From Natronococcus sp. CG52 (GTDB lineage Archaea; Halobacteriota; Halobacteria; Halobacteriales; Natrialbaceae): DNA of 64,000 nt. Under the pieces are notes generated by a model. That model was not told where the DNA came from. It worked only from the letters and a program-made list of their open reading frames with translations, and did no database searches. This document shows positions 16,579 to 18,549 of the stretch, piece by piece. Location of the stretch: NCBI RefSeq assembly GCF_023913515.1, contig NZ_CP099391.1, positions 1,426,001-1,490,000 of the forward strand, given 5' to 3'. The translations under genes and the position numbers were made by a program. How positions within the stretch are numbered: position 1 is the first letter of the stretch; every line of letters starts with the position of its first letter.

Positions 16579-16613
16579 ATATTTATCACTGAAATGGCAG
16601 TACCAGTTTAAGC
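16579..16613 (+). promoter_or_regulatory. Promoter region of the acidic repeat protein gene
   Basis: Two TATA-like elements precede the ATG at 16645: gatatttatc at 16579-16588 and gtttaagc at 16606-16613. The second lies about 35 nt upstream and would give a leader of a few nucleotides; the first would give a leader of about 35 nt. The rest of 16323-16578 shows no gene. Confidence 0.4.
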
Positions 16614-16644: not shown

Positions 16645-18549
16645 ATGAGCGTACGCAATATACTCGTTGTAGTAATCGCACTGATGGTACTCGGCTCTGG
16701 CGGAGCCGCAGCGGTCGCAGCAGGGCCCGCTGCCATGAGTGTCGACGAACACGAGAACGACGAACTCACGGAAGAGGAACCGGACGACGCTCCTGACGGT
16801 GAGGGGCTTCACGTAACAATTGAACAGGCGACCATCTTCGTCGTCGCCGATGACAATGAATCGGCTGAAGAGCCGATTGACGGCGAACCGGTCGATGAGA
16901 ACGGCGTCGAAGACGAGCCCGTTGACGAGAACGACAGCGGCATCGACGACAACGACGAGATCGAGGACGAGCCCGTCGATGAGAACGGCGTCGACGACAA
17001 CGACAGCGACATCGGCGACAACGGCGTCGACGACAACGACGAGATCGAGGACGAACCCGTCGATGAGAACGGTGTCGACGACAACGACGAGATCGAGGAC
17101 GAGCCCGTCGATGAGAACGGCGTCGACGACAACGACAGCGACATCGGCGACAACGGCGTCGACGACAACGGCGTCGATGACGACGAGGTCGAAGATGAGC
17201 CGGTCGATGCTCCTGACGGCGAGGAGATGCAGGTAACCATCGAGCAGGCCACCATTTTCGTCCACGTCCACGACGCTGGCGAGATGGTCGACGAGAACGG
17301 CGTCGAAGACGAGCCCGTTGACGAGAACGACGAAGCTGACGACTACGACGAGGAGGAACCGGTAGACGAGAACGGTGTCGACGACAACGACAGCGACATC
17401 GGCGACAACGACACCGACGACAACGACGAGATCGAGGACGAACCGGTCGACGAGAACGGCGTCGACGATAACGACAGCGACATCGGCGACAACGGCGTCG
17501 AAGATGAGCCCGTCGACGAGAACGGCGTCGAGGAAGAACCCGTCGATGAGAACGACGTCGGCGAGGACCAGGAAGTCTCGATCAGCGAGGCGACCGTCTT
17601 CGTCGTCCTCGACGAACACCCGATGGAGGAGGAGCCGGTTGACGAGGAAGAGCCCGTTGACGAGAACGGTGTCGATGACAACGGCGTCGATGACGACGAG
17701 GTCGAAGATGAGCCGGTCGATGCTCCTGACGGCGAGGAGATGCAGGTAACCATCGAGCAGGCCACCATTTTCGTCCACGTCCACGACGCTGGCGAGATGG
17801 TCGACGAGGAACCGGTTGACGAAGAGCCGGTCGACGAGAACGGCGTTGACGAGAACGGTGTCGAGGAAGAGCCCGTTGACGAGAACGACGAGGCTGACGA
17901 CTACGACGATGGCGTCGACGACAATGACACCGACACCGTTGCGGACGAACCTGCCGACGATGGGAATCACGCTTACGACGGATCGATCGAGGTGACCCTC
18001 GAGCAGGTGACCATCGTCAACCTCGCCGACCACGAAGACGAATCGGTCGAGGAGAACGATGTCGAGGAAGAGCCCGTCGATGAGAACGACGAGGCTGACG
18101 ACTACGACGAGGAGGAACCGGTCGATGAGAACGGCGTCGACGACAACGACAGCGACATCGGCGACAACGGCGTCGACGACAACGACAGCGACATCGGCGA
18201 CAACGGTGTCGATGAGAACGGTGTCGAAGATGAACCGGTCGATGCTCCTGACGGCGAGGAGATGCAGGTGACCATCGAACAGGCCACCATCTTCGTCTAC
18301 GTCCACGACACCGACGAGATGGTCGACGAGGAAGAGCCGGTTGACGAGGAAGAGCCGGTTGACGAGGAAGAGCCGGTTGACGAGGAAGAGCCGGTTGACG
18401 AGGAAGAGCCGGTTGACGAGGAAGAGCCGGTTGACGAAGAACCGGTCGACGAAGAGCCGGTTGAAGAGGAGCCAGTTGAAGACAATGAGTCCGTCGACGA
18501 CAACGACTTCGAGAACGACACCGAGGAAGAAGCGATGACGTCCTGCTAG
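16645..18549 (+). CDS. Secreted, extremely acidic repeat protein with recurring beta-strand modules
   Basis: 634 residues. A Sec-type signal peptide (about 1-26, hydrophobic core ILVVVIALMVLGSGGAAAVAA) precedes a chain made almost only of Asp, Glu, Val, Pro, Asn and Gly. Six short modules of the form (M/L)-x-VTIEQATIFVxV recur at about residues 54, 194, 309, 365, 448 and 540. Between them run DENGVDDNDSDIGDNGVDDN-type and EEPVDENGVEDEPVDE-type repeats. The C-terminal part holds six exact DEEEPV units. No anchor is seen; the chain ends EEEAMTSC. Acidic Asp/Asn-rich repeats could bind Ca2+ or Mg2+ outside the cell; that is inference. I do not recognise the family. The gene stands alone. Confidence 0.75.
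   Translation: MSVRNILVVVIALMVLGSGGAAAVAAGPAAMSVDEHENDELTEEEPDDAPDGEGLHVTIEQATIFVVADDNESAEEPIDGEPVDENGVEDEPVDENDSGIDDNDEIEDEPVDENGVDDNDSDIGDNGVDDNDEIEDEPVDENGVDDNDEIEDEPVDENGVDDNDSDIGDNGVDDNGVDDDEVEDEPVDAPDGEEMQVTIEQATIFVHVHDAGEMVDENGVEDEPVDENDEADDYDEEEPVDENGVDDNDSDIGDNDTDDNDEIEDEPVDENGVDDNDSDIGDNGVEDEPVDENGVEEEPVDENDVGEDQEVSISEATVFVVLDEHPMEEEPVDEEEPVDENGVDDNGVDDDEVEDEPVDAPDGEEMQVTIEQATIFVHVHDAGEMVDEEPVDEEPVDENGVDENGVEEEPVDENDEADDYDDGVDDNDTDTVADEPADDGNHAYDGSIEVTLEQVTIVNLADHEDESVEENDVEEEPVDENDEADDYDEEEPVDENGVDDNDSDIGDNGVDDNDSDIGDNGVDENGVEDEPVDAPDGEEMQVTIEQATIFVYVHDTDEMVDEEEPVDEEEPVDEEEPVDEEEPVDEEEPVDEEEPVDEEPVDEEPVEEEPVEDNESVDDNDFENDTEEEAMTSC
17164..17295 (+). repeat. 132-bp exact direct repeat, copy 1
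   Basis: Nucleotides 17164-17295 are identical, including third codon positions, to 17677-17808 (offset 513). The unit encodes the acidic linker and a complete VTIEQATIFVHVHDAGEM module of the acidic repeat protein. Confidence 0.85.
17677..17808 (+). repeat. 132-bp exact direct repeat, copy 2
   Basis: Second copy of the repeat at 17164-17295. Identity at silent positions implies a recent duplication or ongoing gene conversion within the gene. Confidence 0.85.
18325..18432 (+). repeat. Six tandem 18-bp units
   Basis: gacgaggaagagccggtt repeated six times without a mismatch, encoding six DEEEPV units, followed by two shorter 15-bp variants. A likely site of copy-number variation by slippage. 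Confidence 0.9.

Follow-up and report, generated by a model that had tools for sequence, protein, structure and literature searches.

Which kind of protein is built from short hydrophobic strands set in long polyacidic spacers, and what might it do outside a haloarchaeal cell? This question was raised by one gene of Natronococcus sp. CG52, located in the window, which denotes the whole 64,000-nucleotide stretch that was analysed. The gene, its upstream element and the features at both ends of its product are listed below.

16645..18549, + strand: gene of the secreted acidic module protein, 634 aa (ORF, composition; orthologs in Natronococcus)
16581..16613, + strand: 33-bp promoter element ATTTATCACTGAAATGGCAGT[A/C]CCAGTTTAAGC, made up of a TATA box and ~26 further nt and lying 64 nt ahead of the ATG (conservation)
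16645..16731, + strand: Sec-type signal peptide MSVRNILVVVIALMVLGSGGAAAVAAGPA (sequence; N-terminus conserved; cleavage site approximate)
18544..18546, + strand: C-terminal Cys codon, sole Cys of the protein (composition, relatives' C-termini)

The gene, its promoter and the secreted chain

The ORF at 16645-18549 (+) starts with ATG, stops with TAG and encodes 634 aa. Its codon-position GC values were 0.80/0.23/0.78, indicating a genuine translated haloarchaeal gene. The Sec-type signal peptide supported, by sequence, the original prediction that the product is secreted, and a sequence scan of the 634-aa protein revealed no transmembrane (TM) segment beyond it. The mature chain consisted of 23.6% D, 22.7% E, 13.2% V and 7.4% N. 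Asp and Glu together accounted for 46%, K, R and W were all absent, and the computed charge was approximately -280.

The final residue was Cys in every complete Natronococcus-type ortholog read. Several other relatives also ended in Cys (CHC, CAC, TNC) and many others did not, and Cys was nearly missing elsewhere in these proteins (0.15%). In relatives without the terminal Cys (e.g., L085, L092, L105 and L078), an acidic tail was followed by a hydrophobic stretch of the last 6-8 residues, and AAIGVAS, PAIGLVG, TIGAIGV and AAIGALAG were among these ends. A search of the window protein for LPxTG, PGF-CTERM and a C-terminal TM helix found none of these anchor motifs, and the protein was accordingly not assigned to sortase or archaeosortase anchoring. 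The number of N-x-S/T sequons was 12, compared with 2.2-2.4 in shuffled sequences, an excess whose events are not independent since the repeated unit NDS supplies much of it. Many relatives carried 19-34 sequons where 4-9 were expected; approximately half of the relatives were enriched, and several had zero.

Close relatives were identified by a profile search of genome contigs and a narrow N-terminal alignment, and belonged to Natronococcus amylolyticus, N. jeotgali, N. pandeyae, two Natronococcus strains, one Natrialbaceae MAG and Natronoglomus mannanivorans. Of the six Natronococcus-type loci, five had the gene order of the window, with the gene flanked by PEPCK and HEWD-CutA-L11 (rpl11). 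The remaining locus, from N. pandeyae, had PEPCK in place, and its contig stopped within the gene. The promoter element spans the TATA box to about the expected transcription start. In each of the seven Natronococcus-type loci compared, 32-33 of its 33 bases were identical, whereas most of the upstream intergenic DNA was far less alike. With up to 3 mismatches allowed, the element occurred once in the genome, and neither the genome scan nor the locus comparison showed it to be common to the paralog described below. The element has an ACTG-N6-CAGT symmetry, and a looser version (23/33) is present at an equal distance in Natronoglomus. The element is possibly an operator.

Modules and acidic spacers

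The original prediction of an acidic chain with recurring beta-prone modules was in agreement with the composition given above and with six modules, each 18 residues long, which follow the pattern (L)xVTIEQATIFVxVxD and are located at residues 53-70, 193-210, 307-324, 364-381, 446-463 and 538-555. The modules, the duplication and the main repeat tracts are as follows.

16801..16854, + strand: module 1, EGLHVTIEQATIFVVADD (module matrix)
17221..17274, + strand: module 2, EEMQVTIEQATIFVHVHD, duplicate of module 4 (exact duplication)
17563..17616, + strand: module 3, EDQEVSISEATVFVVLDE, the relatives' 'GQAT'-type position (module matrix, position comparison)
17734..17787, + strand: module 4, EEMQVTIEQATIFVHVHD (exact duplication)
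17980..18033, + strand: module 5, GSIEVTLEQVTIVNLADH, special type with an IEV start and HAYD in front (module matrix, position comparison)
18256..18309, + strand: module 6, EEMQVTIEQATIFVYVHD (module matrix)
17164..17295, + strand: exact 132-bp duplication, first copy, carrying a module (sequence identity)
17677..17808, + strand: exact 132-bp duplication, second copy (sequence identity)
16855..17220, + strand: longest acidic spacer, 122 aa, with units DENGVDDNDSDIGDN and EDEPVDE and N-x-S/T sequons (repeat analysis)
18321..18470, + strand: tandem array of 18 bp x 8.7, (EEEPVD)n, C-terminal tail (repeat analysis)

The module matrix was trained on the six modules of the window alone, and its cut-off was taken from shuffled sequences. 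In the first candidate protein set, 121 modules were found, approximately 115 of them beyond the six of the window. These further modules in relatives exceeded the shuffle-based cut-off, and hence the six modules are not due to chance. A count of generic hydrophobic windows was not above that in shuffled sequences (6 observed; shuffle mean 3.5, maximum 8), so the evidence lies in a specific, phylogenetically conserved motif and not in hydrophobicity alone.

The regular alternation of modules and acidic spacers in the original prediction was borne out only in a loose sense: the spacers measured 122, 96, 39, 64 and 74 residues in order, and the gaps between modules shrank to 6-13 aa in relatives. 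The spacer sequence differed by species (ENGVDDND, YENDEADD, NVTDEEDD, DDNGLEDD, EEEPV), whereas the modules persisted. In the close Natronococcus orthologs (L071, L072 and L073), the modules had zero amino-acid changes and the spacers were 85% identical. Among the first five rows of the alignment, which were close relatives, gaps occupied 31% of the spacer columns vs 8% of the module columns. In distant pairs, modules contrasted only weakly with spacers in dN/dS, and pairs with the window protein were left out because the alignment mispairs its modules with those of the relatives. The argument from modules and spacers therefore rests on persistence and indels.

The tandem arrays and the exact duplication (17164-17295 = 17677-17808), within which modules 2 and 4 fall, point to active slippage or recombination, as expected for a low-complexity gene that drifts without a definite function. 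The gene order, promoter, signal peptide, terminal Cys and modules are nevertheless all conserved across species, a pattern that largely refutes such drift and leaves it very improbable. A protein with an (EEEPAE)n tail, encoded at L009 3510-4094 (+), looked secreted and was unrelated; it had been matched only via the common low-complexity repeat.

The acidic spacers may themselves be the functional part, in cation buffering or divalent binding, with the modules merely tying the chain. The Asp+Glu content and the charge are compatible with such an ion-binding polyanion, as is the secretion of poly-gamma-glutamate by another haloarchaeon, Natrialba aegyptiaca (PMC10897055). DxDxG occurred 7 times vs 2.2 in shuffled sequences, but this excess stems from one repeated unit, DNDSDIGDN. 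Moreover, the modules and not the spacer sequence were conserved between species, and no excess of RTX, TSP3, dockerin or EF-hand motifs was present. An ion-binding role was thus rated as improbable. The same counts spoke against the folding driven by divalent ions that had been proposed for the protein. In the window protein, GGxGxD, DxDxDGxxDxxD and DxNxDG each occurred 0 times, the EF-hand-like DxDxDG occurred once (chance 1.0), and Pfam gave no match for calcium-binding motifs. With these values at zero or chance, assignment to calcium-binding repeats was dropped. The soda-lake brines in which Natronococcus lives are poor in Ca and Mg.

A Natrialbaceae family with a DUF7282 paralog

A search for other proteins with repeated modules of this type had been suggested. 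A module profile of 20 columns was searched in 292 Halobacteria genomes (E<=1e-3), and, with the family taken from the genome names, it matched in 43/74 Natrialbaceae genomes and in 0/218 other Halobacteria. Family members are defined here as having a Sec signal peptide and, after it, several (L)xVTIEQATIFVxV modules embedded in acidic spacers; the window protein shows both features. The first impression that the protein is unlike any nameable family was upheld in Pfam, NCBIfam and the PDB, where no family covers the modules. The scan of the protein against Pfam and NCBIfam gave low-complexity matches only, all under the cut-off; among these, Extensin_1 (PF02095) reached 28.9 bits against a gathering cut-off of 105 and was rejected. 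The module profile found no relative in the PDB, where the single chance match was malate dehydrogenase (E 0.65), and plasmid and phage collections gave no match. In the open literature searched, DUF7282 was unmentioned and no protein of such design was found. The protein belongs to an undescribed family spread across Natrialbaceae; among extracellular repeat proteins, its module and its design are undescribed. The Natrialbaceae-wide family, the DUF7282 paralog, the conserved terminal Cys and the sequon enrichment extended beyond the original prediction.

The genome contained 12 module matches, and all the places listed belong either to ORF 16645-18549 or to a single paralog, located at C1:2.044 Mb. 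In the paralog, DUF7282 (E 9e-44) is combined with six modules, and the tail is Ig-like, of the CARDB type; the CARDB match above the Pfam cut-off was obtained in a relative and not in the paralog itself. The paralog locus (L008 1421-9971; syntenic among L078-L115) was kept across the family. It comprises an NAD-dependent epimerase, a small membrane protein, a DUF7343 membrane-bound HTH protein, the module protein, a DUF7344 regulator, HTH_20 and DUF1616, and in some genomes a PadR-like regulator is also present. From this gene content, the neighbourhood would be a regulated cell-envelope or surface-polymer locus.

DUF7282 was found in 26/48 collected family members, and relatives also fuse the modules to CARDB-like Ig domains. 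Surface proteins often take up short beta peptides by donor-strand addition. Each module may thus be a donor strand for the sheet of a surface partner (e.g., DUF7282 or CARDB-like), which would make the protein a multivalent linker holding a polyanionic coat on the envelope. However, DUF7282 is absent from the window protein, the neighbours of the gene are PEPCK, HEWD, CutA and L11, and the partner is hypothetical. Such docking was regarded as rather improbable, with a small chance of being correct.

The number of modules was five or six in most relatives, including many distant ones, and 1-3 in some (L091, L095, L100 and L108-L114). In a test of 15 proteins of the family locus, each entered with six modules, same-position modules were more alike than different-position ones by an excess of 7.3, compared with 0.0 +/- 0.36 (maximum 1.6) in permutations. 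AlphaFold2 of the full protein (eight orthologs) gave a mean pLDDT of 39 and a pTM of 0.28. Nearly all predicted strands coincided with the modules (E55-70, 195-210, 310-322, 367-379, 443-459 and 540-554), where a pLDDT of ~57 denotes low confidence. AlphaFold on a three-module segment yielded no strands, also with low confidence.

These results bear on the main rival to the explanation preferred below, according to which the protein has one defined fold, with five or six modules as non-interchangeable strands of a compact beta sheet or solenoid and with the spacers as giant disordered loops. The recurrent module number, the signature retained at each position, the 6-13 aa gaps in relatives and the pairing of strands at the modules in the full-protein model are all consistent with one fold. 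By contrast, the module number is not constant, the window protein has a duplicated, inserted module, and the AlphaFold confidence is low. The positional likeness can be due to inheritance alone, but it indicates that the modules were not homogenised. A single fold was judged unlikely, though with a sizeable chance.

A proposed sticker-and-spacer design and known systems

The explanation preferred here, although tentatively and somewhat short of probable, is that the protein is exported by Sec and serves on the cell surface or in the extracellular matrix as a 'sticker-and-spacer' protein. The signal peptide, strand modules, polyacidic spacers, sequons, terminal Cys, promoter and Natrialbaceae-wide conservation were read from the sequence, while strand association, glycosylation, cross-linking and the matrix role would follow from them by inference. 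After export, the strands of ~14 residues (LxVTIEQATIFVxV) would pair edge to edge, both within and between molecules. The acidic and probably glycosylated spacers would remain disordered, extended, hydrated and soluble in molar salt. In Natronococcus, the terminal Cys may join molecules by a disulfide. Together, such molecules would form a polyanionic coat or biofilm matrix that is hydrated and weakly cross-linked; the DUF7282-bearing paralog, beside the epimerase and envelope-type genes, may be a second component of this material.

The sticker-and-spacer reading is favoured by the signal peptide without any other TM segment, by module matches that, among those listed, all fall in the gene or its paralog, by modules that keep their form and position while the spacers are replaced, by the sequon excess and by the C-terminal Cys. 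Strands at the modules in AlphaFold and the position of the paralog beside the epimerase, DUF1616 and HTH regulators point in the same direction. Furthermore, Congo red and thioflavin T stain the biofilms of Haloferax volcanii, for which one tentative gene, HVO_1403, was named (PMC4180959), and the Methanospirillum sheath is reported to be made of an amyloid-like protein (PMC10593813). Conversely, the reading is weakened by position-specific modules, which are unlike freely interchangeable stickers, and by the poor AlphaFold confidence with a strandless three-module piece. It is also weakened by the zero sequons in several relatives, the Cys missing in many, the weak dN/dS contrast in distant pairs and the lack of a known anchor motif; the protein may be wall-bound or free.

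A more specific form of this material may be of a new design, either a functional amyloid of archaea or a gel that associates through beta strands in a salt-dependent manner. In it, short position-specific beta modules, held apart by glycosylated polyanionic spacers, would form a proteinaceous matrix or coat in Natrialbaceae. This was considered unlikely, with a modest chance. The protein family is a concrete candidate for amyloid-like biofilm material of haloarchaea in Natrialbaceae, because the amyloid-like staining of haloarchaeal biofilms has only the one tentative gene (PMC4180959). It also provides a natural case of conserved short strands joined by freely changing acidic linkers of 40-120 residues, which informs on association in molar salt at high pH.

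Among the known systems, the DUF7282 (PF23951) proteins of Natrialbaceae have several parts in common with the window protein: the paralog and 26/48 members, which carry DUF7282, share the modules, the spacers and the type of signal peptide. The window protein differs in its locus, its Cys end and the lack of DUF7282 or CARDB, and Pfam gave no match to PF23951 in it. Functional amyloids and sheaths, such as CsgA curli and the Methanospirillum sheath (PMC10593813), are likewise secreted, have short repeated beta-prone units and are proposed to have a structural role outside the cell. The modules of the window protein are up to 122 acidic residues apart and do not abut, and the curli repeat S-x5-Q-x4-N-x5-Q had 0 matches in the protein.

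In the case of pentapeptide-repeat proteins, VTIEQ-ATIFV can be divided into two [AV]TIxx units. However, each module has just two such units followed by an entirely hydrophobic end, and no Pfam match to the pentapeptide repeat (PF00805 and relatives), which consists of A(D/N)Lxx-like units in runs, was obtained in the protein. Another secreted protein of the same genome, at C1:about 600 kb (L118 1180-2358 (+)), has longer pentapeptide-like blocks (VTLENVQVESLELDNVTVENATIEELAVDELEV) and acidic, NET-sequon-rich spacers; an L026 relative has an equal layout, and the design is the same with a different module. Finally, the poly-glutamate wall polymers of Natronococcus and Natrialba are also extracellular, glutamate-based materials of related haloarchaea (PMC10897055). 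These polymers are not gene-encoded chains with beta modules, whereas the protein described here is.
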